A stretch of DNA of 64,000 nucleotides from positions 1 through 64,000 of the forward strand of contig JAQTYQ010000014.1 in NCBI GenBank assembly GCA_028688225.1, in the 5' to 3' direction. The notes below the pieces were generated by a model, which searched no databases, had not been told where the DNA came from, and worked only from the letters and a program-made list of their open reading frames with translations. Source of the stretch: Opitutaceae bacterium (GTDB lineage Bacteria > Verrucomicrobiota > Verrucomicrobiia > Opitutales > Opitutaceae). A program made the position numbers and the translations under genes. This document shows, one piece after another, positions 32,624 to 44,086 of the stretch. How positions within the stretch are numbered: the first letter of the stretch is position 1; every line of letters begins with the position of its first letter.

Positions 32624-33556
32624 ATGAGTACCCCCGCCGACGGAGATGACGTTCCGCGGTCGTTGCACCGTGCCTTCGGACTGACGATCCGCTCATGCCT
32701 GCTGTTGCCGGAATTGCTGCCAGCCCCCGCCGGCGCCGAGCCCGAGGTGGAGATCGTCTATGGAAGCGTGCCGAAGGAACTGCCCGACGCGATCGCCCGG
32801 GGCGTGCGCTTCCAGGTGGCAGCCGACAAGCTGCTGCTCCAGGTGGATGGCATCGCGCGTTATCTGGTAAGCGATGGACGGACCATCACGATCGATCGCG
32901 ATCCGGCCGCAGACGACGACGACATCAAGATCTTTCTGTTGGGCTCGGTTTTCGGCGCGTTGATGCATCAGCGGGGCGATCTCGTGCTCCACGGAAGCGC
33001 CATCGAATGGGACGGGCGGTGCGTCGTGTTCATGGGCGCCTCCGGCGTGGGCAAATCGACGCTGGCCTCCGCCCTTCGCCAGAAGGGGCATGCCATCCTG
33101 ACCGACGATCTGTGTGTGGTGCGTCCGGGGGATGACGGAACGATGTACGCGCATCCTGGATTTCCCCAGACCAAGCTCTGGCTCGATTCGCTCAAGCAGC
33201 TCGATATTTCGGCCAAGGGGCTGCGACGCATTCGCACCAAGCTCGAAAAGCGGGCGGTATCGCTGGGGGATCAATTTGTGACCCGACCGTTGGCGATGAA
33301 GAAACTTTACATGCTCCGACCGCACAATCGGGAGGAATTCACTCTCACCGTGCTGCAGGGGCCGGAGAAGTTCGCGGCCCTCAAGAGAAACACCTATCGA
33401 TTCGGGTTTTTGGCGGATATCGAGGGGAAGGCGGGACACTTCCAGCACGCGTTGCGGCTGGCACAACAGGTGCCGGTGGCGGCTGTGCAGCGCCCTTCCG
33501 GGAGCTTCCAGATCGGGAAGCTGGTCACGCTGATCGAAACCGATCTTGGCATATGA
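32624..33556 (+). CDS. HprK-like serine kinase, lasso-peptide tailoring (K)
   Basis: A 310-aa protein of the HPr kinase/phosphorylase C-terminal fold. The Walker A FMGASGVGKST is at about 137-146, preceded by DLVLHGSAIEWDG and followed by HAILTDDLCVV, the typical HprK-related order. The HPr-binding N-domain and the HprK signature are lacking, as in lasso-cluster kinases. Such kinases (paeninodin and relatives) phosphorylate the C-terminal Ser of the precursor peptide. The ATG at MSTPADG is chosen because upstream codons lie in repeat sequence. Its stop overlaps the sulfotransferase start (ATGA). Confidence 0.82.
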   Translation: MSTPADGDDVPRSLHRAFGLTIRSCLLLPELLPAPAGAEPEVEIVYGSVPKELPDAIARGVRFQVAADKLLLQVDGIARYLVSDGRTITIDRDPAADDDDIKIFLLGSVFGALMHQRGDLVLHGSAIEWDGRCVVFMGASGVGKSTLASALRQKGHAILTDDLCVVRPGDDGTMYAHPGFPQTKLWLDSLKQLDISAKGLRRIRTKLEKRAVSLGDQFVTRPLAMKKLYMLRPHNREEFTLTVLQGPEKFAALKRNTYRFGFLADIEGKAGHFQHALRLAQQVPVAAVQRPSGSFQIGKLVTLIETDLGI

Positions 33557-34416
33557 ATGGGATTGTCTGGCTGGCGTCCTACCCGAAGTCCGGCAACACC
33601 TGGTTCCGGACGTTCCTGACCAATTTCCTGAGAAACGGCGACGCACCGGCGGACATCAATAAGCTCGAAGGCGGCCCGATCGCCAGTGCGCGGCGGCCCT
33701 TCGACGAAGCGGTGGGTTACGACTCCGGCGAGATGACGCCTGATGAAATCGACCGGTTGAGACCCGAGGTCTACCTGTATCAGGCACGCGAGGCGAAGGA
33801 AACGATGTACTGCAAGGTGCATGACGCCTACACGGTTTTGCCCGACGGACGACCACTGATTCCACCTGAGTCGACCGCCTGCGTTCTTTATTTCATTCGC
33901 AACCCGCTCGACGTGGCCGTGTCGTTCGCCCACCACAGCGGGCACGATCGCTTCGACCGGACCATCCGGCAGATGGGCACGGCAGAGCATTCGTTCTGCG
34001 CGACCGACGCGACCGAAACTAATCAACTCCGGCAGAAGCTGCTCACTTGGAGCCAGCACGTTCTGAGTTGGGTGGATGCGCCCGCCATGCGCGTGACAGT
34101 GGTGCGTTATGAGGACATGAAGCTGCGACCGGAGGACACGTTTGGCTCGGCGGTGCGGTTCGTCGGCCTGCCGGCCGATCCGGCGCGGGTGAGAAAGGCG
34201 ATCGAGTTCAGCCGCTTCGAAGAGATGCGGAAACAGGAGGAGAAGGACGGCTTCGGCGAAAAGATGCCGCGCGCAAAGTCGTTTTTCCGAAAGGGCGAGA
34301 TTGGCTCATGGCGCGGGTCGCTCACGCCCGGACAGGCGGCGAAGATCATCGCCGATCACGGCGACGTGATGCGGCGCTTCGGGTATCTCGACGAGAAGGG
34401 CGACCCGGTGTATTGA
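33553..34416 (+). CDS. PAPS-dependent sulfotransferase in the lasso locus
   Basis: A 287-aa cytosolic-type sulfotransferase. The 5'-phosphosulfate loop WLASYPKSGNTWFRTF is at residues 6-21 and the 3'-phosphate region YFIRNPLDVAVSF at about 113-125. The late FFRKGEIGSWRG matches the conserved RKG-x-x-G-x-W motif. It transfers sulfate from PAPS to a hydroxyl or amine. It is translationally coupled to the kinase gene, so the acceptor may be the same peptide, for example a Ser, Thr or Tyr; this is inference. Small-molecule acceptors are not excluded. Confidence 0.85.
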   Translation: MNGIVWLASYPKSGNTWFRTFLTNFLRNGDAPADINKLEGGPIASARRPFDEAVGYDSGEMTPDEIDRLRPEVYLYQAREAKETMYCKVHDAYTVLPDGRPLIPPESTACVLYFIRNPLDVAVSFAHHSGHDRFDRTIRQMGTAEHSFCATDATETNQLRQKLLTWSQHVLSWVDAPAMRVTVVRYEDMKLRPEDTFGSAVRFVGLPADPARVRKAIEFSRFEEMRKQEEKDGFGEKMPRAKSFFRKGEIGSWRGSLTPGQAAKIIADHGDVMRRFGYLDEKGDPVY

Positions 34417-34876
34417 ACGAGGAGGAAACGACAGGCCACCCAGCGCGGCACGAACGCGACCGAAGAGCGGAGGGGGAGTCTCTTTACAGGAGCAAGCGAA
34501 GGAAACGAAGTTCGATCCGGAGTAGCGAGTGCGCTCGAATAATCCCAACAACCCAAACCGTTTTACAGGAGGTAACGGAGCAAACGGAGAAAATGGAGTC
34601 GAAGACTCCGAGACGATCCATTCACCGCGGATCACACGGATGGGCACGGATGAGAACCCAGCCTGCCCGCTACTCACTACTCTGGCCGCGGTTTCCCGGT
34701 TTCAGGGTTTCCTTTCTCCCGATTTTTCCGCCCCCCTCCGTTTTCGCCTGCAAAAAAGCAGGAGGGGATGATCGTCGCGAACAGACACGATCCGTGGAGA
34801 CAGTAGGACACGAATGTGCGGCGGGTGCGGAATTTTCGTGTCTTCCGGGCGCTTTCTGGTTTTTATTCATGCTATC
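34417..34876. other. Repeat-rich gap between the sulfotransferase and the RRE gene
   Basis: No convincing gene. It contains two direct TTTACAGGAG-type repeats (34481-34510 and 34561-34600), an ACCGCGGATCACACGGATGG-like segment near 34623, a CCTGC-A6-GCAGG hairpin near 34748, and an inverted GACACGAA/TTCGTGTC pair near 34808-34842. The gap splits the kinase-sulfotransferase pair from the B1-C-A genes. Confidence 0.55.
34561..34600. repeat. TTTTACAGGAGG...GGAGAAAATG repeat, intergenic copy
   Basis: TTTTACAGGAGGTAACGGAG, then CAAACGGAGAAAATGG. A close direct copy lies at 35215-35250 and supplies the start region of the lasso cyclase gene. Shorter or diverged members are at 34481 and, inverted, at 25530-25572. 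Confidence 0.6.
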
Positions 34877-35173
34877 ATGAGCCCTACAGCCGAGATTCCC
34901 CCGGCTGCCACCGTGGTCCGGAGCCCTGATCAAGTGTCGGGAGATTTGGACGGCAAGGTGGTGCTGCTGAGCATCGAAAACGGCACGTACTACAACATGA
35001 ACGAAGTCGGCAGCCGGATTTGGGCGCTGATCGAAAAGCCGGTGACAGTCGCCGCGCTGATCGAACAGCTCCTCGCAGAATTCGAGGTCGAGAAGTCGAC
35101 GTGTGAAAAAGAGGTGGCAGATTTTCTCGGGCAACTGCAGAAGGACCATCTGCTCAAAGTGGTCGAGACCTAG
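34877..35173 (+). CDS. Lasso-peptide RRE protein (B1, PqqD-like)
   Basis: A 98-aa PqqD-fold protein. The core VVLLSIENGTYYNMNEVGSRIWALIEKP followed by TVAALIEQLLAEFEVEK and VADFLGQLQKDHLL is the standard PqqD/RRE pattern. In lasso systems B1 binds the leader (YxxPxL-type motif) and delivers the precursor to the B2 protease and the cyclase. The ATG at MSPTAEI is preferred; a longer in-frame reading has no support. It precedes the cyclase by 73 nt. The partner B2 is 5.4 kb away, an unusual split. Confidence 0.88.
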   Translation: MSPTAEIPPAATVVRSPDQVSGDLDGKVVLLSIENGTYYNMNEVGSRIWALIEKPVTVAALIEQLLAEFEVEKSTCEKEVADFLGQLQKDHLLKVVET

Positions 35174-35214: not shown

Positions 35215-35250
35215 TTTTACAGGAGGCAACGAAGAGAACGGAGAAAATGA
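35215..35250. repeat. TTTTACAGGAGG...GGAGAAAATG repeat providing the cyclase start
   Basis: TTTTACAGGAGGCAACGAAG, then AGAACGGAGAAAATGA. The terminal GGAG and ATG serve as Shine-Dalgarno and start codon of the lasso cyclase gene. The copy at 34561 has the same GGAGAAAATG without a gene behind it. Confidence 0.6.
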
Positions 35251-37181
35251 GCGCAATCTGCGGCCTGCTTCGATTGGATGGCCGGCCCGTGACCGCCGAG
35301 AATCTGCGGCCGGCAATGGAGGCGGTGGCCCAGTATGGCCGGGATGGAAGCGGCGTCTGGACGCTCGGCGCAGTCGGTTTCGGACATCGACTCATGAGGT
35401 TGACGCCGGAGTCAGCGCATGAGCAGCAGCCCATAACGCGAGGTAACCTGACCCTCACGGCCGACGCGCGGATCGACAACCGCGATGAGCTTTTCGCCGA
35501 ACTGTCGGTGCGGTCGGCCGAGCGGTCGTGCATGACGGATGGCGAACTGGTGCTGCTGGCTTATACCAAATGGAGAGAGGATTGCCCGAAGCACCTGATC
35601 GGCGATTACGCGTTTGCGATCTGGGACGAGCCCGCCCGGCGCCTGTTTTGCGCGCGCGACCACATCGGCGCCCGGCCGTTCTTCTACTACCATTCCCCGG
35701 CTCTATTCGCTTTCGCCACCGATATCCGCGGTGTGCTGGCCTTCCCCGGTGTGCCGGCCGAGATCGACGAAGTGGAGGTTGCGCAGATGCTGCTGTCCGA
35801 ATCGCCGGGTTACCACGACAACGAGCACACGTTCTTTCGCGATGTGCGGAAGCTCACTTTCGGGCATTACTTGACGGTGGATAGCGGAACGTTGCATACG
35901 AAGCGCTACTGGCGACCAGAGGATGTTCCTCCGTTGACGCTGCCAACGACGGAAGATTACGCCCAACGCCTGCACGATCTCGTCCGGCAGGCGGTGGCCG
36001 ACCGGCTGCGTACGGATAAGCCGACCGGTGCGCATCTGAGCGGCGGTCTCGACTCGTCGTCGATCGCGGTGCTCGCGGCGCAGCTGCTGCGTGAGCGCGG
36101 CGCGACGCCTCCGGCGGTGTTCTCCTGGTCCCCACCGCCGGGCCCACCGCCCTACACGGACGAGCACAAGCGGATCGAGGCGGTGTGCCGGCAGGAGGGT
36201 TTGGCGCCGATCTACAACGACCAAACCGAGGCAGAATGGAACGCCGTTCTCGACGCAGAGTCCGCCACGCGGCCGGTGTTGACCGTGGCAAACGAGCGGC
36301 ACCTGCAACGCCGGGCCGAGTTGCTCGGCGTTCGCGTGATTCTGTCGGGCTGGGGCGGAGACGAGGCGGCAAGCTTCAATGGCCGGGGATTGCTCGCGGA
36401 ATACGTGAGGAACTGGCGTTGGGGCGACGCGATTGCGTATCTGCGATCGCGCGGAAGCATCCGGCAGCCGCGCAGCCTGCTGAACGTTGCGCGCGTGTTC
36501 TGGCGCGACGGTGTACTTCCGCTTTTGAGCTCGGCAACCTATGAAAGATTCAACCCGTACTCTCGCGGTCCCTCCATGATTCGGGAGGATTTTCTGGAGC
36601 GAATCCGTGCGCACCTACGGCAAGTGCAAAAACCGCCGCGAGAGGTTCCGGGCGGGCGGCAATGCCAGTGGCAACTCTATTACGCGGGCCATATCACCGC
36701 CCGGATCGAATCATGGGCGGCCCTAGGCGCGGACTGCAATCTCGTCTACGGCTATCCCCTGCTCGACCGGCGGGTGCTTGAGTTCGTCTACGCCATCCCG
36801 GTGGAACTTCACGCCCGGGATGGACGAGGGCGCTACCTGTGCCGGAAAGCGATGGAGTGGGTGTTGCCGCCCGGAATAACGAACGAAGCCATGAAACAAG
36901 AAATGGTTCTGGAGGGGCAGGCTATTTCATGGCGTAATGCCCGGCTGGACCGCTGGGCCGCAGAGTTGGGCAGCAGCGCTGCCAATTGGGAAAATCCGTG
37001 GGTCGATATTGCGCGTCTGCGAGGCAATCTGACGGGTGGTTCAACGGCACGGAGAAGGCCCTACGGCAAAATTCCCCTCACATGCGCACTGACCGGCGTA
37101 AGCCTTTGGCGGCACTGGAAAAACAGCTCGACACCTTCTCGATCAGAGAGCTACGCTTACTTAAAATCAACAAACTTATGA
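35247..37181 (+). CDS. Lasso-peptide macrolactam synthetase (C, asparagine-synthetase-like)
   Basis: A 644-aa two-domain protein. The N-terminal class II amidotransferase-like domain begins MSAICGLLRLDG, without the Cys2 needed for glutaminase, as in lasso cyclases. The synthetase domain has the PP-loop HLSGGLDSSS (SGGLDS at 265-270) and SGWGGDEAASFNGRG. It adenylates the ring Asp/Glu side chain and lets the core's N-terminal amine attack, closing the lasso ring. The start uses the ATG supplied by an upstream repeat. Its TGA overlaps the precursor ATG by 4 nt, so precursor and cyclase are translationally coupled. Confidence 0.9.
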   Translation: MSAICGLLRLDGRPVTAENLRPAMEAVAQYGRDGSGVWTLGAVGFGHRLMRLTPESAHEQQPITRGNLTLTADARIDNRDELFAELSVRSAERSCMTDGELVLLAYTKWREDCPKHLIGDYAFAIWDEPARRLFCARDHIGARPFFYYHSPALFAFATDIRGVLAFPGVPAEIDEVEVAQMLLSESPGYHDNEHTFFRDVRKLTFGHYLTVDSGTLHTKRYWRPEDVPPLTLPTTEDYAQRLHDLVRQAVADRLRTDKPTGAHLSGGLDSSSIAVLAAQLLRERGATPPAVFSWSPPPGPPPYTDEHKRIEAVCRQEGLAPIYNDQTEAEWNAVLDAESATRPVLTVANERHLQRRAELLGVRVILSGWGGDEAASFNGRGLLAEYVRNWRWGDAIAYLRSRGSIRQPRSLLNVARVFWRDGVLPLLSSATYERFNPYSRGPSMIREDFLERIRAHLRQVQKPPREVPGGRQCQWQLYYAGHITARIESWAALGADCNLVYGYPLLDRRVLEFVYAIPVELHARDGRGRYLCRKAMEWVLPPGITNEAMKQEMVLEGQAISWRNARLDRWAAELGSSAANWENPWVDIARLRGNLTGGSTARRRPYGKIPLTCALTGVSLWRHWKNSSTPSRSESYAYLKSTNL

Positions 37182-37345
37182 ACGACGAAAGTGTTATTAC
37201 TCCTGACACCCCGTCGCCGGTCATTCGAGACCAAAGTCGTCGGCACTGGGAAACGCCTTGTTTGGAGCCGCTGGATGTTGTGGACAAAACTAATAAGGTG
37301 TCCATTTTCCCCAGTGAACTTGGCACCTACGCGGCACCATCTTGA
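37178..37345 (+). CDS. Putative lasso-peptide precursor (A)
   Basis: A 55-aa peptide directly after the cyclase (ATGA overlap). The leader has W24-x-x-P27-x-L29 (WETPCL), a good match to the YxxPxL motif read by B1, then EPLDVVDKTN with Thr38 at position -2, the usual cleavage mark. Cutting after Asn39 gives the core KVSIFPSELGTYAAPS. Glu47 is core residue 8, the right place for an 8-residue ring with the core's N-terminal amine. Lys as residue 1 is unusual; most lasso peptides start with Gly, Ala, Ser or Cys. The final Ser55 fits the HprK-like kinase. Cleavage, ring and modifications are predictions. Confidence 0.72.
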   Translation: MNDESVITPDTPSPVIRDQSRRHWETPCLEPLDVVDKTNKVSIFPSELGTYAAPS

Positions 37346-37558: not shown

Positions 37559-38164
37559 TCAGGTGCGGGACGGGAAGACGCCCTGCGTCACGATCACATA
37601 GTTGAGCGCCAGAAGCGGCTGCAGGATGCTGAACGGCAAGCTGTTGCCGGCGGGTTGGACCGTCGTGGTCGCAGTCGCGGTGGTGGTTGCCATGCCTGCG
37701 GCCATTGCGGCCGGCGTCCCTGCTCCTGAAGCAGCATAGCCTGTAATGACCTTGGGTGGCGTGTCAGTCGTCGCTACCGAGGTCAGATAGTTATTTGCCG
37801 GGCTTGGCAGCCTCGCAGTCGGCGCGCCAAGCGCGGTGATCGCGGTGGTGGCGTTCACGTTCGTGACCGCTCCGTGGATATGCGCCGGCAGCTCCTTTTG
37901 TGTCAGCGCCACTCCCTCCGCGCCAGCGATCTCGCCAATGAGGTAATTGGAGGTGCCGGGGCTCTGCCCCTGGCCGATCGCCATGCGGCCACCGAGGTTG
38001 GGCAGGCCAAACGTGCTCTGGCCGTTGCCACCGAAGGTGGTTCCGAGGAGCGAGAACAGCGCGGTGTTCTGCTGGATCGGCACGATTGCGCCGTTGCAGA
38101 GTGCGAAGCCCCGGGGGGGCCAGCTGAAACCGAAGATGGTGATTTCGCCTAAGTAATAATCCAT
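37559..38164 (-). CDS. Phage-tail-collar domain protein (MdpB/microcystin-dependent-protein-like)
   Basis: A 201-aa protein. The N-terminal collar domain is clear: YYLGEITIFGFSWPPRGFALCNGAIVPIQQNTALFSLLGTTFGGNGQSTFGLPNLGGRMAIGQG, then LTQKELPAHIHG. The rest is Ala/Thr-rich and of low complexity and ends in a short hydrophobic strand (LNYVIVTQGVFP). Such proteins occur outside prophages as free-standing genes of unknown role; no other phage gene is here. It is followed by an intrinsic terminator and preceded by a DUF6916-like gene in the same direction. Confidence 0.85.
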   Translation of the reverse strand: MDYYLGEITIFGFSWPPRGFALCNGAIVPIQQNTALFSLLGTTFGGNGQSTFGLPNLGGRMAIGQGQSPGTSNYLIGEIAGAEGVALTQKELPAHIHGAVTNVNATTAITALGAPTARLPSPANNYLTSVATTDTPPKVITGYAASGAGTPAAMAAGMATTTATATTTVQPAGNSLPFSILQPLLALNYVIVTQGVFPSRT

Positions 38165-38213
38165 GACAGATGTGGGTTGGGGGTTGAGTTCGGGATTTGG
38201 ATTTTCGCTTGGA

Positions 38214-38522
38214 TCATTGCCCCTCGTCCTTCAGCAAATTGAAAACGGCCTCGTAGATGACGCCGCTTCGCTTCTTCTGGATCGGGACCAGGAACAAATC
38301 GAATCCGCCCAGCGCCGGGTGGCTGAGGCGGTAAAGATGCTGGGGCAGGACGCCGCCGGCGCCGCTGAAAAAGAGGGAGAAGCAACACTGAATCTCATCG
38401 TCGATGTGCAGCTTGACTGCGGTGAGCGTGAAATCACTGGTGCCGCCGTCGTGATGCACGACAAAGGTCTCGTCGACGTGTGGACGATAGCAATCGGGCG
38501 AAGTGAAGGCGGGCGTGGTCAT
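38214..38522 (-). CDS. DUF6916-like small protein
   Basis: A 102-aa soluble protein with segments ETFVVHHDGGTSDFTLTAVKL, CFSLFFSGAGGVLPQHLYRLSHPALGGFDLFLVPI, and YEAVFNLLKD. The PQ-x-Y-x-L-x-H-P-x-LG-x-x-x-x-FLVP stretch is typical of the DUF6916 family as I remember it; the family name should be checked. These proteins are often encoded beside tail-collar proteins, as here (49-nt gap), and might aid their folding or placement. Function unknown. Confidence 0.6.
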   Translation of the reverse strand: MTTPAFTSPDCYRPHVDETFVVHHDGGTSDFTLTAVKLHIDDEIQCCFSLFFSGAGGVLPQHLYRLSHPALGGFDLFLVPIQKKRSGVIYEAVFNLLKDEGQ

Positions 38523-38738: not shown

Positions 38739-39269
38739 ATGAATGCTTTCATCAAGCTGCGTCCGGTCGATCCTGACGACGAGCCGTTCTTGTGCGACTT
38801 GCGCGCGCAAGTCGATTCCGAGCGCCTCGGGCTCCGCTACTGGTCTCCCGGGTCTGAGCAAATGGCCCAGGAGATCCTGGCGCTGCAGTTCAAGGCGCAC
38901 AGCGCGCACTACCGGAAGGTCAAATCCAACTGGGACACGAAAGACTGCATCATCGAGTTCGACGGGCAGCGCGTGGGGCGCTTCATCGTCACCCAGGACG
39001 CGAAAGTCGTGCATCTGGCGGACATCGCCGTGCATCGCGATCATCGCGGCAAGGGGATCGGCCAGGCGGTGATCGATGCGACGAAGGCGGAGTGCGTGCA
39101 GAGCAAGCGAACCCTCCGTCTGCACGTCGATCCGCTGAACCCGGCTCTGCAGTTCTATCTGCAGCTCGGGTTTCGCGTCATCGAGCAGAAGCCGACCCAC
39201 CTGCTGATGGAATGGGCGCCGCCATCGTTGCAGGGGAAGAAGCTCTATTTCCCGCCGGGGAAAGCGTAG
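38739..39269 (+). CDS. GNAT-family N-acetyltransferase
   Basis: A 176-aa acetyltransferase. IKLRPVDPDDEPFLCDLRAQ opens the fold; HLADIAVHRDHRGKGIGQAVIDA carries the acetyl-CoA-binding R-x-x-G-x-G/A pattern; LHVDPLNPALQFYLQLGFRVIEQ is the family's C-terminal strand. It transfers an acetyl group from acetyl-CoA to an amine; acceptor unknown. It is divergent from the DUF6916-like gene and convergent with the second sulfotransferase gene, with only 19 nt between stops. Confidence 0.88.
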   Translation: MNAFIKLRPVDPDDEPFLCDLRAQVDSERLGLRYWSPGSEQMAQEILALQFKAHSAHYRKVKSNWDTKDCIIEFDGQRVGRFIVTQDAKVVHLADIAVHRDHRGKGIGQAVIDATKAECVQSKRTLRLHVDPLNPALQFYLQLGFRVIEQKPTHLLMEWAPPSLQGKKLYFPPGKA

Positions 39270-39288: not shown

Positions 39289-40224
39289 TCAAAGGACGGC
39301 CAGCCACCGGGCGTAGTGAGGCTCCGCCCATCGCGCCACGGCGGCGAGAATGGCAGGACTGGCCTCTTTCCGCTTGGCCGCGGTGTCCGGCGTGAAACGC
39401 TGGGCCGGATTCTTCGCATCGAACGCCGCCGCCGCCTGAAGACGCGCGCGCTCGTCGCCGGTGAAGGAACACCCGGGAATCACCTCCCAGACGACTTCCG
39501 GCAACCGTTCGTAGTCGACCGGGACGAGCGCGTCGCGATGCTCCCTGGCCGCGCGAAACAGCGCTCCCAGGACCGCCGCGGCATGCTCCTCGCGCGAAAG
39601 CGCGTCGCGGATCGCGGTCGTGAGCCCGAGCTGGCCGGGAGTGACGGTGTCGCGGACGATGGCCAGGCTCGGCATCCGCATCAACGACACCAATACTTCG
39701 ACGGGATCCCGAAAGACAAACAGCATCGGCACGCCCGGAAACGCCCGCTGGATCAGCGGCAGTGAGAAGACATGCCAGCAGGCCAGCTTCACGAACAGCC
39801 GTTCGCCGCCGTCCGCGGGTCTCTGACCGAGTGCGTGAACCGCGCCGCGCAGCCAGGCGATCCGATCGTCGTCGTTCACCTCCGGCACCCGCTGGTTCAG
39901 CCGCAATATCTCGTCGATGATCTGGGGCTCGGAGGCCACGAGGTTGCGGGGAAGCGCCGCCAGCATCTGCGCCAGCAATGTCGAACCACAGCGGGAGACG
40001 TGAAAAATCAACGCCGCGAGCGGCACGCCGGGTGCCACGTCGCGCAAGGCGTTCAACGGCGTGCGGGACCGGCGGGTGCGGGCATTGGCTGGGTTTCCAC
40101 GGCGAAGACGGGCGAGAGTCTCCTCGAAGAATGGCTCGGTGAAGCGCGAGCCATCGGTTGCGATCCATTCAACCAGCGGTTCGCCCGCTTCGAAATCCAG
40201 CCGGAATGGAAGCGCGCCTGTCAT
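39289..40224 (-). CDS. Sulfotransferase-family P-loop protein
   Basis: A 311-aa protein with the PAPS-loop-like FHVSRCGSTLLAQMLAALP (about 88-106) and VFRDPVEVLVSLMRMP for the 3'-phosphate site. The class differs from the first sulfotransferase of this locus and resembles bacterial enzymes annotated only as sulfotransferase family. Substrate unknown. It belongs to the module with tail-collar, DUF6916-like and GNAT genes that lies between the two halves of the lasso locus. Confidence 0.78.
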   Translation of the reverse strand: MTGALPFRLDFEAGEPLVEWIATDGSRFTEPFFEETLARLRRGNPANARTRRSRTPLNALRDVAPGVPLAALIFHVSRCGSTLLAQMLAALPRNLVASEPQIIDEILRLNQRVPEVNDDDRIAWLRGAVHALGQRPADGGERLFVKLACWHVFSLPLIQRAFPGVPMLFVFRDPVEVLVSLMRMPSLAIVRDTVTPGQLGLTTAIRDALSREEHAAAVLGALFRAAREHRDALVPVDYERLPEVVWEVIPGCSFTGDERARLQAAAAFDAKNPAQRFTPDTAAKRKEASPAILAAVARWAEPHYARWLAVL

Positions 40225-40595
40225 GCGATGCCGTCGGGTTCGATCAGGGTAGTCGGAAATCCGCGGGTCAGTCCGCCGCGGCTGGCCTCGGGTCGGATGC
40301 GCCGGGAACGAGTGATGGAACGGCGCCGGCAGGCGGGCAAGCCGGGCGGAAATCCACGGGAGGCAACGACGATGGCGGCCGGGGATGCCTGAGGCGTGGT
40401 CGAAAGCCGCCTGATCCTGGCCGGAAATTCATGCACGCGAGCCGAGACTAGCATCGTTTTTCCCGCTGCCACAACCACAGAACCGGCGTGGCTGAGTGAA
40501 TCGTGGTCTGGGCTTGCCCGGCTCTTTCCAGGGCCCATCTTGGCCGGAGAAATGCCCCGCATCCACCCCTGCCCTTTCGTCCATCTGGAATCCGT
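40225..40595. other. Gap before the B2-D-N operon
   Basis: Between the leftward sulfotransferase and the rightward B2 gene I see only one plausible short reading frame (40396-40599). The first half is GC-rich with no recognisable product on either strand. No terminator or clear promoter was found. Confidence 0.5.
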
Positions 40596-40599
40596 GTGA
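40396..40599 (+). CDS. Short unknown reading frame coupled to B2
   Basis: A possible 67-aa peptide starting with GTG; its TGA overlaps the B2 GTG (GTGA), as expected for coupled genes. The sequence ends GEMPRIHPCPFVHLESV and has no domain I recognise. It could be a leader frame, a remnant of an older cluster gene, or chance. It does not look like a lasso precursor: no YxxPxL-like leader or ring Asp/Glu at core position 7-9 after a Thr -2 site. Confidence 0.3.
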   Translation: MVESRLILAGNSCTRAETSIVFPAATTTEPAWLSESWSGLARLFPGPILAGEMPRIHPCPFVHLESV

Positions 40600-41081
40600 A
40601 ACATCCCGACGCCATCGCCGCATCCGCGGTGCGGAGATTCATGGCCCGATCGCAGGCGGATCGATTGCTGCTGCTTGAAGCGCTGTGCGCCCTGGCCTGG
40701 GCCCGGGTTCTTGCCCTGTGCCTTCCCTTCCGCCGGCTGGCGGCGATGTTGGGCGACCTGGGAACCGCAGGCCCCGAGGCGGCGCCCCCCGCGCATGAGG
40801 AAACCGCCCGGAGGATCGGGTGGGCGGTGGCTGCCATGGCGCGGTATGTGCCGTGGGATGGCCGCTGCCTGACCCAGGCCATTGCCGGCTGGCGGATGCT
40901 GGCGCGACGAGGCATCGCCGGCACCGTCTACCTCGGCGTGAGTGAGGCGCCTGAGCATGGCGGAAAGATGGCTTTCCATGCCTGGCTGCGCTGCGGGTCC
41001 AGTTTTGTGACGGGAGGAGACGGACGCGCCCGCTATCAGGTTCTGGCATGTTTCTCCAGGAAGGCGGGCAACCATGATTGA
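40596..41081 (+). CDS. Lasso-peptide leader protease (B2, transglutaminase-like)
   Basis: A 161-aa cysteine protease of the lasso B2 family. YVPWDGRCLTQAIAGWRMLARRGIAGTVYLGV holds the catalytic Cys, KMAFHAWLRCG the His, and FVTGG follows as usual. It cleaves the leader after the Thr -2 position, presented by B1. It starts with GTG. Its end overlaps the exporter gene by 8 nt, so B2, D and N form one operon. A TCCGCGGTGCGGA repeat copy lies within the early codons. Confidence 0.88.
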   Translation: MKHPDAIAASAVRRFMARSQADRLLLLEALCALAWARVLALCLPFRRLAAMLGDLGTAGPEAAPPAHEETARRIGWAVAAMARYVPWDGRCLTQAIAGWRMLARRGIAGTVYLGVSEAPEHGGKMAFHAWLRCGSSFVTGGDGRARYQVLACFSRKAGNHD

Positions 41082-42885
41082 ACGCTCCCGGCGCGAACTC
41101 CGGCAAAAAGCCTCCATGGTTCGCAAGGGCCTCGGCCTGGTCTGGCGCTCTGCGCGGGGCTGGACCCTGGCCTGGACGATCCTGCTAGTGGCCCAGGGGG
41201 CGATACCAGCTTTGCAGATTCAGCTCACACGGACGGTGGTCAACCGCCTTTCAGGAGTATTCATGGAGGGCGGTTGGAGACACCCCGCAATCTGGATGCC
41301 CATCGGGCTCATCGCCGTGCTCTGGATCGCCGGACAATTGCTTTCCAGTCTATCCGGATGGGTCCGGCTCGCGCAGGCAGAGCGGGTTCAGGATCACGTC
41401 TATTCGCTGATCCACCGGCAGGCGCTGAACCTGGATCTGGCATTCTTCGAGAACCCCGAATCCTACGACCTGCTGCATCGGGCCCGGGTGGATGCCATCA
41501 GCCAGCCCCTCGCCCTGCTGGAAAGTCTCGGGAGTCTGGTCCAGAACGGGCTGACCCTGATCCTGGTGGCCATCCTTCTGGCCGCCTACACCCCGTGGCT
41601 GCCCGTCCTGCTCATCGCCAGCGCCCTGCCCGGGCTCTGGATCGTGGGCAAGCACGTGCTGCGCGAACACCGCTGGCGCGCGGCAAACACCAGCCAGGTC
41701 CGGCGCGCCAGTTACTTCGACTGGATGCTCACCGACCGGGGCAGCGCTGCGGAAATGCGACTCTTCGATCTGGGGCCGCATCATCGGGAAAGTTTCCAGA
41801 AGATCCGGCAACGGCTGCGCGAGGGCCGCATGAATCTGGCGCTGGCGGAGCTGAAGGCAGAACTGGCGGCAGGCCTGCTCTCCTTCTCCGGAGGATTTCT
41901 CGGCATGGGCTGGATGCTGCTGCGGCTGTGGAAAGGACTGGCCCGCCTGGGCGATCTGGTCCTCTGCTACCAGGCATTCCAGCAGGGACAACGGCTGCTG
42001 CGGACCCTCATGGAAAGCGCCGGGCAGATCTACCGCAGCACCCTGTTTCTGGAGAATCTTTTTCATTTCCTGGCCCTGCGATCGTCGCTCCCGGAAAGAT
42101 CGGATCCCCTGCCCGTGCCCGATTCCAGAGGGCATGAGATCCGCTTCGAACAACTTGCGTTCACCTATCCGGGCAGCGAACGGCGCGCCCTCTCCGACTT
42201 CTCGCTCACCCTCCCAGCCCGCACCGTCACGGCCATCGTGGGCCATAACGGCGCCGGGAAGAGCACGCTCGTCAAGCTCCTGTGCCGCTTTTATGATCCC
42301 CAGCAGGGGACCATCCGCATGGACGGCATCGATCTGAAGCATCTCGCCCTGGCGGATCTGAGGAGACAGATCACGGTGCTCTTCCAGGAACCGGTGCACT
42401 ACCACACCACCGCCGCCGAAAACATCGCCATGGGCGATCTCGCTTCGGCCCCGGATCTGGCGCGCATCCGGACAGCTTCGGCATCAGCGGGCGCCGACGG
42501 TCCCATCGAGCGTTTGGAGCACGGGTACGACACCGTCCTGGGCCGATGGTTCGGCGGGGCCGAGCTGAGCGTAGGCGAATGGCAACGCGTGGCTCTGGCG
42601 CGGGCTTTCCTGCGCGACGCGGCCCTGCTGGTGCTGGACGAGCCCACGAGCGCCATGGATTCCTGGGCCGAGATCGAATGGTTGCGCCGCTTTCGGGTCC
42701 TGACCGAAGGGCACACCACGCTCATGATCACCCATCGATTCACGACCGCCATGCACGCGGACAGAATCCACGTGATGGATTGCGGCAGAATCATCGAGTC
42801 GGGTTCTCACGAGGAGCTGCTGGCAGCGGGCGGGCACTACGCCCAATCCTGGAAAGCGCAGATGAGAGAGATTTCACATGCCTGA
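41074..42885 (+). CDS. Lasso-peptide ABC exporter (D)
   Basis: A 603-aa half-transporter with fused membrane and ATPase domains. Hydrophobic segments include WTLAWTILLVAQGAIPAL, WMPIGLIAVLWIAGQLL, LTLILVAILLAAYTPWLPVLLIASALPGLWIV and a late membrane pair. The ATPase has Walker A IVGHNGAGKSTLV, a signature region GGAELSVGEWQRVALARA, Walker B ALLVLDEPTSAMD, and H-loop MITHR. No C39 peptidase domain, consistent with leader removal by B2. It would pump the mature peptide out and give self-protection. It overlaps both neighbours by 8 nt. Confidence 0.88.
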   Translation: MIERSRRELRQKASMVRKGLGLVWRSARGWTLAWTILLVAQGAIPALQIQLTRTVVNRLSGVFMEGGWRHPAIWMPIGLIAVLWIAGQLLSSLSGWVRLAQAERVQDHVYSLIHRQALNLDLAFFENPESYDLLHRARVDAISQPLALLESLGSLVQNGLTLILVAILLAAYTPWLPVLLIASALPGLWIVGKHVLREHRWRAANTSQVRRASYFDWMLTDRGSAAEMRLFDLGPHHRESFQKIRQRLREGRMNLALAELKAELAAGLLSFSGGFLGMGWMLLRLWKGLARLGDLVLCYQAFQQGQRLLRTLMESAGQIYRSTLFLENLFHFLALRSSLPERSDPLPVPDSRGHEIRFEQLAFTYPGSERRALSDFSLTLPARTVTAIVGHNGAGKSTLVKLLCRFYDPQQGTIRMDGIDLKHLALADLRRQITVLFQEPVHYHTTAAENIAMGDLASAPDLARIRTASASAGADGPIERLEHGYDTVLGRWFGGAELSVGEWQRVALARAFLRDAALLVLDEPTSAMDSWAEIEWLRRFRVLTEGHTTLMITHRFTTAMHADRIHVMDCGRIIESGSHEELLAAGGHYAQSWKAQMREISHA

Positions 42886-44086
42886 AGTCCCGCCACCTCT
42901 TCCGGAGCGTTTTCAGCTCTCGCCAGAATTTCGTCTGCTGGCGGCCTGCTCCTGGCTTCCGCCCGCCCCCTGGGATCGCGATCAGTCACGACTCATCGCC
43001 GCCCTGTGCGGAAATCCCATCAACTGGACCACGTTCCAGAATCTCATCGACCGCCACCGGGTTCCCATCCTTGTGCACGCGAACCTGGCCAAATACGGGG
43101 GTTCCAGCATTCCTGCAGAGCCTTGGAAGTCCATACAAGCACGCGCCCGGAAAGCTTCCGCGCTCTCCCTGCTCCAGGCCGCGGAGCTCGTGCGCCTTAG
43201 CCGGGTTTTTCGCGAAGCGGGAATCGACCTGCTGCCTCTGAAAGGGACGACGCTGTCTTTGCGCCTCTACGGCGAACTCACGGTCCGGAGCCTGAGGGAT
43301 TTGGATCTGCTGGTTCGGACCGAGGATTTTGATCGAGCCGAGCGGCTTCTGTTCGAACAGGGCTACCGTCGCATCATCCCGGATTTCGAGCCGACGGAGC
43401 GGATGAAGACGGTGCTCCGATCCCTCACCCACCATTACAACTACGTGCATGGGAGCCGGAATACTCGGGTGGAGCTTCACTGGCGTTTCCACGATTGGAG
43501 CCAAGATCAACTGCAACAGCTCTGGATTCACAGCCGGGATCTTCAATGGCGTGGAACTGACCTCAGGCACATCGAGGATGGCATCCTTTTCCTGCTGCTC
43601 TGCGAACACGGAACCAAACACATGTGGTTCCGCATGAAATGGCTCAGCGACGTGGCCATGCTCATGATCCGCGAGGGTCCACAGACCCGCGAGGATCTGG
43701 CTGGCCTGGTGAGCGAGCGAAGACTGGAGGGCTCCGTCGCCCAGACGCTCCTCCTCGTCCACTGGCTTTACGGCATCGTCCCTCCCGAGTGGATGCGTGC
43801 ATTGACGACCCAGGATGACCGGGCGGTCGACCTCGCCTCCACGGCGCTTGAAGCCATCCTCTCCCCGCGGGAAGGTCAGGATCCGAACCCAATCCGCGGA
43901 CACCTCCGGATATGGAGATATCTTCGAAACCAGGGCAAAGCACCCTCCCCGGCCGCCTATCTTCGAGGAATTGCGCTAAACCCCAATGACGCCAGCCTCG
44001 TGCCCCTGCCGGATTCCCTTTTCTGGTTCTATTACGTTTTGCGTCCGATTCTGTGGATCTGGCGCCGACGCCGGTTGGGACGCTGA
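42878..44086 (+). CDS. Nucleotidyltransferase-family lasso tailoring protein (N)
   Basis: A 402-aa member of the NTP_transf_5-like family. The nucleotidyltransferase motif is LLPLKGTTLSLRLYGELTVRSLRDLDLLV with the KG, LYG and DLDLL elements; RVELHWRFHDW follows and a basic, hydrophobic C-terminus ends in RRRRLGR. Homologues accompany lasso kinases; in the pseudomycoidin system such a protein was linked to adding sugar units after Ser phosphorylation. It overlaps the exporter by 8 nt. Modification type here is inference. Confidence 0.8.
   Translation: MPEVPPPLPERFQLSPEFRLLAACSWLPPAPWDRDQSRLIAALCGNPINWTTFQNLIDRHRVPILVHANLAKYGGSSIPAEPWKSIQARARKASALSLLQAAELVRLSRVFREAGIDLLPLKGTTLSLRLYGELTVRSLRDLDLLVRTEDFDRAERLLFEQGYRRIIPDFEPTERMKTVLRSLTHHYNYVHGSRNTRVELHWRFHDWSQDQLQQLWIHSRDLQWRGTDLRHIEDGILFLLLCEHGTKHMWFRMKWLSDVAMLMIREGPQTREDLAGLVSERRLEGSVAQTLLLVHWLYGIVPPEWMRALTTQDDRAVDLASTALEAILSPREGQDPNPIRGHLRIWRYLRNQGKAPSPAAYLRGIALNPNDASLVPLPDSLFWFYYVLRPILWIWRRRRLGR

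Follow-up and report, generated by a model that had tools for sequence, protein, structure and literature searches.

Related lasso peptide systems

Paeninodin of Paenibacillus dendritiformis (PadeA, PadeK) is one of the closest known relatives of the locus described here: both have separate B1 and B2 proteins, an HprK-like kinase and a precursor with a terminal Ser (PMC9266682). Our cluster differs from that of paeninodin by a predicted Lys1 core and by an additional sulfotransferase and nucleotidyltransferase. In pseudomycoidin of Bacillus pseudomycoides (PsmK, PsmN), a kinase and a nucleotidyltransferase likewise occur in a lasso cluster; its core is different, and a sulfotransferase is not mentioned in PMC9266682. 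The bsf cluster of the Gram-negative Bradymonas sediminis (BsfA, BsfK, BsfN) shares the kinase, nucleotidyltransferase, B1, B2, C and D genes and a Ser3 (PMC10368454). BsfA, however, carries Ile(-2), Gly1, a terminal Asp and a leader Tyr, whereas the corresponding residues here are Thr(-2), Lys1, terminal Ser and Trp. Metanodin, known from a soil metagenome, also has a non-standard first ring residue and was overlooked by automatic annotation (PMC12670498); it starts with Asn1, originates from a different cluster and was shown experimentally, while our peptide is predicted. Linear polyphosphorylated peptides share the gene types for RRE, HprK-like kinase, nucleotidyltransferase and exporter (PMC13381572), but their clusters lack the cyclase and B2, both of which are present here.

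Organization of the gene cluster

The whole 64-kb stretch of DNA analyzed is referred to below as the window. Judged from sequence matches, it encodes a complete cluster of the paeninodin/pseudomycoidin type with kinase, sulfotransferase, B1, C, A, B2, D and N genes:

32624..33556, + strand: HprK-like kinase (PF07475, 8.6e-08, just below the gathering score; TIGR04352, 8.3e-11, below the cut-off)
33553..34416, + strand: PAPS-dependent sulfotransferase (PF00685, 3.5e-26; motifs YPKSGNTW, KVH and RNPLDVAVS)
34877..35173, + strand: RRE/PqqD-like protein, B1 (start chosen inside ORF 34814-35173; NF033536, 96.4 bits, cut-off 80)
35247..37181, + strand: lasso cyclase, C, of asparagine-synthetase fold (Pfam Asn_synthase and GATase_7; NF033535, 408.6 bits)
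37178..37345, + strand: predicted lasso precursor, A (55 aa; its translation is probably coupled to that of the cyclase via ATGA)
37178..37294, + strand: leader peptide, residues 1-39 (W24xxP27xL29; Thr38 at -2)
37295..37342, + strand: predicted core KVSIFPSELGTYAAPS, its boundary placed from Thr(-2) and relatives
37559-38522, - strand: tail-collar protein and DUF6916 protein, between the precursor and B2
38739..39269, + strand: GNAT acetyltransferase, a possible accessory gene (domain match)
39289-40224, - strand: second, distant sulfotransferase, between GNAT and B2
40503..41081, + strand: leader peptidase, B2, transglutaminase-like (NF033537, 101.6 bits, cut-off 33)
41074..42885, + strand: ABC exporter, D (profile matches)
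42878..44086, + strand: NTP_transf_5 nucleotidyltransferase, N (PF14907, 2.6e-48; overlaps the exporter stop)

The kinase contained the conserved His, P-loop and DD (HGSAIEWDG...GASGVGKS...TDD), and all eight catalytic residues given for lasso kinases (PMC10368454) were found by eye. The sulfotransferase, on which the preliminary description is silent, as it is on the nucleotidyltransferase and the GNAT, is the less expected component of the cluster; its nearest PDB entries were TEG12 and Teg14, with StaL scoring lower. These three enzymes sulfate glycopeptide antibiotics. The best match of the cyclase was the NCBIfam lasso cyclase model, under its cut-off of 525 bits, which fits a divergent member. 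The B2, exporter and nucleotidyltransferase genes overlap end to start, and the latter enzyme is, by its PF14907 match, a candidate counterpart of PsmN and BsfN. The GNAT gene was missing from 56 other relatives; a homologue with 58% identity was found in genome G044 (locus L138, 698-1276), where DNA similar to the tail-collar/DUF6916 stretch also lies near the cyclase.

Precursor gene and leader

The preliminary description had read a 55-aa ORF starting at the cyclase stop as an unrecognized lasso precursor. The overlap was confirmed at 37178-37181, where the ATG (37178-37180) and the TGA (37179-37181) form ATGA. No ribosome-binding site was visible before this ATG, and translation therefore probably depends on coupling. 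The translation of 37178-37345 (+), MNDESVITPDTPSPVIRDQSRRHWETPCLEPLDVVDKTNKVSIFPSELGTYAAPS, contains the proposed leader motif W-x-x-P-x-L, as W24xxP27xL29, and T38. With T38 taken as position -2, K40 to S55 make up the 16-aa core that had been described, with Glu47 at core position 8 and Ser16 at its end. The corresponding codons are 37295-37297 (Lys1), 37316-37318 (Glu8), 37328-37330 (Tyr12) and 37340-37342 (Ser16).

The term "unrecognized" also fits: against the NCBIfam paeninodin model NF033524, which aligned to leader residues 23-34, the precursor scored 11.9 bits, below the curated cut-off of 27, and so was not assigned to this family; Pfam gave no match. A search of its own genome with the precursor returned the query itself and noise, and no close orthologue was found in the genomes searched.

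For comparison, 58 precursors were tabulated by hand, each confirmed in its own locus up to the stop codon. Because the rows were selected by Thr(-2) and an acidic residue at core positions 7-9, the table cannot prove these two rules. It holds 36 precursors from 25 loci with both a kinase and a sulfotransferase, all with [WY]xxPx and Thr(-2); the same leader type was found in precursors of relatives from Chloroflexota, Acidobacteriota and Pseudomonadota. The refuting condition set by the preliminary description did not apply: homologous loci held short ORFs with this leader grammar rather than another conserved ORF. Their core sequences differ, as is normal; the window tail GTYAAPS resembles GTYAPTS (Pyrinomonadaceae, L017) and GAYAPTS (L023). 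The gene context and the homologous leaders beside homologous cyclases make the ORF at 37178-37345 almost certainly a lasso precursor, in agreement with the preliminary description.

Predicted lysine at core position 1

Thr38 is located at W+14. Many relatives, Gly1 and Ser1 types among them, have their Thr(-2) at this place, and the equal spacing puts Lys40 at core position 1. A spacing of 14 was found in L025, L020 and L145, among others, giving K1 or G1. In the RRE protein, the Tyr of NGTYYNMNE aligns, by eye, with the Tyr suspected of engaging Thr(-2) (PMC10368454). On this sequence evidence, Lys is very likely the first core residue of the window peptide.

Lys1 was also predicted in clusters of three unrelated bacteria, all Chloroflexota, namely L025 (KHVLWTE...), L114 (KTFSIIE...) and L033 (KLDFYEE...), and is thus not unique to the window. 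All four Lys1 precursors were found beside a kinase–sulfotransferase pair; predicted rings have seven residues in the Chloroflexota cores versus eight in the window. L025 and L114 satisfied the strict grammar and had strong Shine–Dalgarno-like stretches upstream; their precursor genes are antisense and occupy the same place, between sulfotransferase and RRE. L033 is a weaker case because of its shorter spacing, although an AGGAG stretch is located before an internal ATG. The first core residue of the 36 precursors with the enzyme pair was S (12), G (8), T (6), K (4), A (2), Q (2), H (1) or F (1); the clade is, in general, permissive at this position. None of the remaining 22 tabulated precursors had Lys1.

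The paeninodin core begins with Ala. In the literature searched, the residues shown at core position 1 are Gly, Ala, Ser, Cys, Leu (leepeptin) (PMC6856326) and Asn (PMC12670498); PMC6856326 also points to a bioinformatic survey showing "even greater flexibility". Production of microcin J25 requires Gly1 (PMC8498205), and some cyclases would therefore not accept Lys1. In the same literature, Lys1 was described for no characterized lasso peptide; among predictions, it is not proven to be new. The earlier wording "rare or new" should accordingly be softened, given the three Chloroflexota clusters and the relaxed position 1. A Lys1 ring, if true, would widen the known scope of lasso cyclases and pose a clean question of alpha versus epsilon amine; with four predicted precursors from separate genomes, Lys1 can be tested.

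Alternative readings of the precursor, the ring and the kinase target

The lack of a close orthologue could mean that the ORF after the cyclase arose by chance and that the true precursor lies elsewhere, and relatives may carry their precursors in antisense orientation or at a distance from the cyclase (L025, L114). To this reading we give very little weight. The six frames of the window were scanned for [WY]xxPx[LIVM], Thr 13-15 residues past the aromatic residue, a core of 13-30 residues, Asp/Glu at positions 7-9 and an upstream start codon. The ORF was the sole match on either strand, it is located exactly at the cyclase stop, and dinucleotide shuffles of the window yielded 0.14 ORFs of this kind per 64 kb, a figure that dropped to 0.02 when a terminal Ser was required. 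A core beginning at Asn39 (NKVSIFPSE...), with a nine-residue Asn1–Glu9 ring and Lys as residue 2, is improbable as well. Such a ring size is permissible and Asn1 was shown experimentally for metanodin (PMC12670498), but this start would put Thr at -1 and Lys37 at -2, and even in metanodin the Thr comes two residues before Asn1. The W-to-Thr spacing also agrees with that of Gly1 relatives, although this is a matter of consistency and not an independent test, Thr(-2) being a selection rule. In our opinion, the window ORF is a real lasso precursor with Lys1, and it is probably functional.

Lys1 has two amines, and the ring might close through the epsilon amine, which would enlarge the macrocycle, or both amines might compete. 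The nearby GNAT could cap one of them, and albusnodin needs an acetyltransferase acting on its Lys10 (PMC9266682); known lasso cyclases, however, use the alpha amine (PMC9266682), which by analogy is the default for Lys1. Acetylation by GNAT does not go with Lys1: no homologue of the window GNAT was found in L114, L033 or L025, of which the last is a short contig. The core of L138, near the GNAT homologue, is devoid of Lys. We thus regard epsilon closure or competition as improbable and retain the alpha amine. The kinase target is less clear-cut, since the window core holds both Ser3 and Ser16. BsfK phosphorylates Ser3 of BsfA (PMC10368454) and LppK Ser3 of LppA (PMC13381572); PadeK, ThcoK, SyanK and PsmK, on the other hand, act on the terminal Ser (PMC9266682). 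Ser3 was present in 4 of the 36 cores with kinase and sulfotransferase versus a terminal Ser in 30, and it is an unlikely, though not negligible, target here. The abundance of terminal Ser in these loci supports Ser16. Terminal Ser occurred in 42/51 precursors with any kinase in the locus. Its excess in loci with the pair over those without was not significant (p 0.21), since it is also present at loci that have the kinase only. The preliminary description had matched the Ser tail to the kinase; this is plausible by these counts, with the reservation that related kinases act on a Ser3 that this core also has. From sequence comparison, phosphorylation of the terminal Ser appears moderately likely.

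Possible sulfation

No characterized sulfated lasso peptide was found in the reviews searched. Sulfotransferase genes have been noted earlier in lasso clusters of Firmicutes, with the product not named (PMC8498205). A Tyr in the tail was present in 19/36 cores with kinase and sulfotransferase versus 5/22 others (Fisher p 0.03; the sequences compared are related), suggesting that tail Tyr is loosely tied to the sulfotransferase. The idea that the enzyme always targets a tail Tyr was rejected: the Lys1 cores of L114 and L025 lack this residue. The conserved kinase–sulfotransferase pair suggests that the lasso product is sulfated; for the window peptide, we consider the chances of some sulfation to be about even.

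Proposed biosynthesis

The ORF most plausibly encodes, and we hold this with good confidence, the precursor of a class II lasso peptide from a paeninodin/pseudomycoidin-type cluster, closed by a Lys1–Glu8 ring, modified and exported. B1 would bind the leader through W24xxPxL, and the kinase would phosphorylate the precursor, with the C-terminal Ser16 as the likeliest target. The sulfotransferase would probably sulfate another hydroxyl, for which Tyr12 is the most attractive site. B2 would cut after Asn39, leaving Thr at -2, and the cyclase would join one of the Lys1 amines to the Glu8 side chain, producing an eight-residue ring with the tail LGTYAAPS threaded through it. The phosphate may be extended by the nucleotidyltransferase, as happens in pseudomycoidin, and export of the product would fall to the ABC protein. 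Of this scheme, the gene, its surroundings, the leader common to the family and the repeated Lys1 of predicted precursors were observed, whereas the cleavage site, closure via the alpha amine, threading and all modification sites are predictions. Speaking against it are the cyclase score below the model cut-off, the lack of a close orthologue, the different precursor of G044, the Gly1 requirement of microcin J25 and the missing ribosome-binding site. A broader proposal is a Lys1 clade both phosphorylated and sulfated by the paired enzymes (apparently fused in marine relatives), with cyclases choosing between the Lys1 amines and possibly using epsilon; we view it as speculative and rather doubtful.

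Distribution of the cyclase and of the kinase–sulfotransferase–RRE module

Only 5 of 94 other relatives matched the window cyclase at E 1e-40 (29–37% identity), and a further search added one at 35%; the cyclase is thus uncommon among near relatives. A query of the plasmid collection with the cyclase gave no match. A genome scan returned 79 loci from many phyla. Chloroflexota and Acidobacteriota loci were added through sulfotransferase searches, and wider regions were fetched. The window sulfotransferase shared 57–60% identity with its nearest homologues from these two phyla and 77–78% with G044, a genome of the same family. In G044 (L138), the nearest genome with these three genes, kinase (66%), sulfotransferase (77%) and RRE (74%) were found together in the absence of an orthologous cyclase and precursor; a different cyclase with a Thr1 precursor was encoded about 5 kb away. 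This arrangement indicates that the kinase–sulfotransferase–RRE module is joined to differing cyclases and precursors. The module in L138 (10139-12537) has no adjoining cyclase and recalls the genes behind linear polyphosphorylated peptides.

In Chloroflexota, Acidobacteriota and Pseudomonadota, lasso loci have the kinase and sulfotransferase genes next to each other. In marine Pseudomonadota, single ORFs matched both the kinase and sulfotransferase profiles, which suggests putative fused enzymes. Examples of adjacency or of a single ORF are the window (33553-34416), L034 (11168-13138), L035 (10150-12090), L019 (10214-12187) and L050 (118-2355). Gammaproteobacterial chromosomes contained several lasso cyclase loci each, with up to five matches in one and varied first core residues (L019-L069; contigs OY282353.1, OY282378.1, OY282519.1 and others). 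In L128 (7946-8821), one cyclase was accompanied by four precursors in tandem, whose leaders are nearly identical and whose cores differ.
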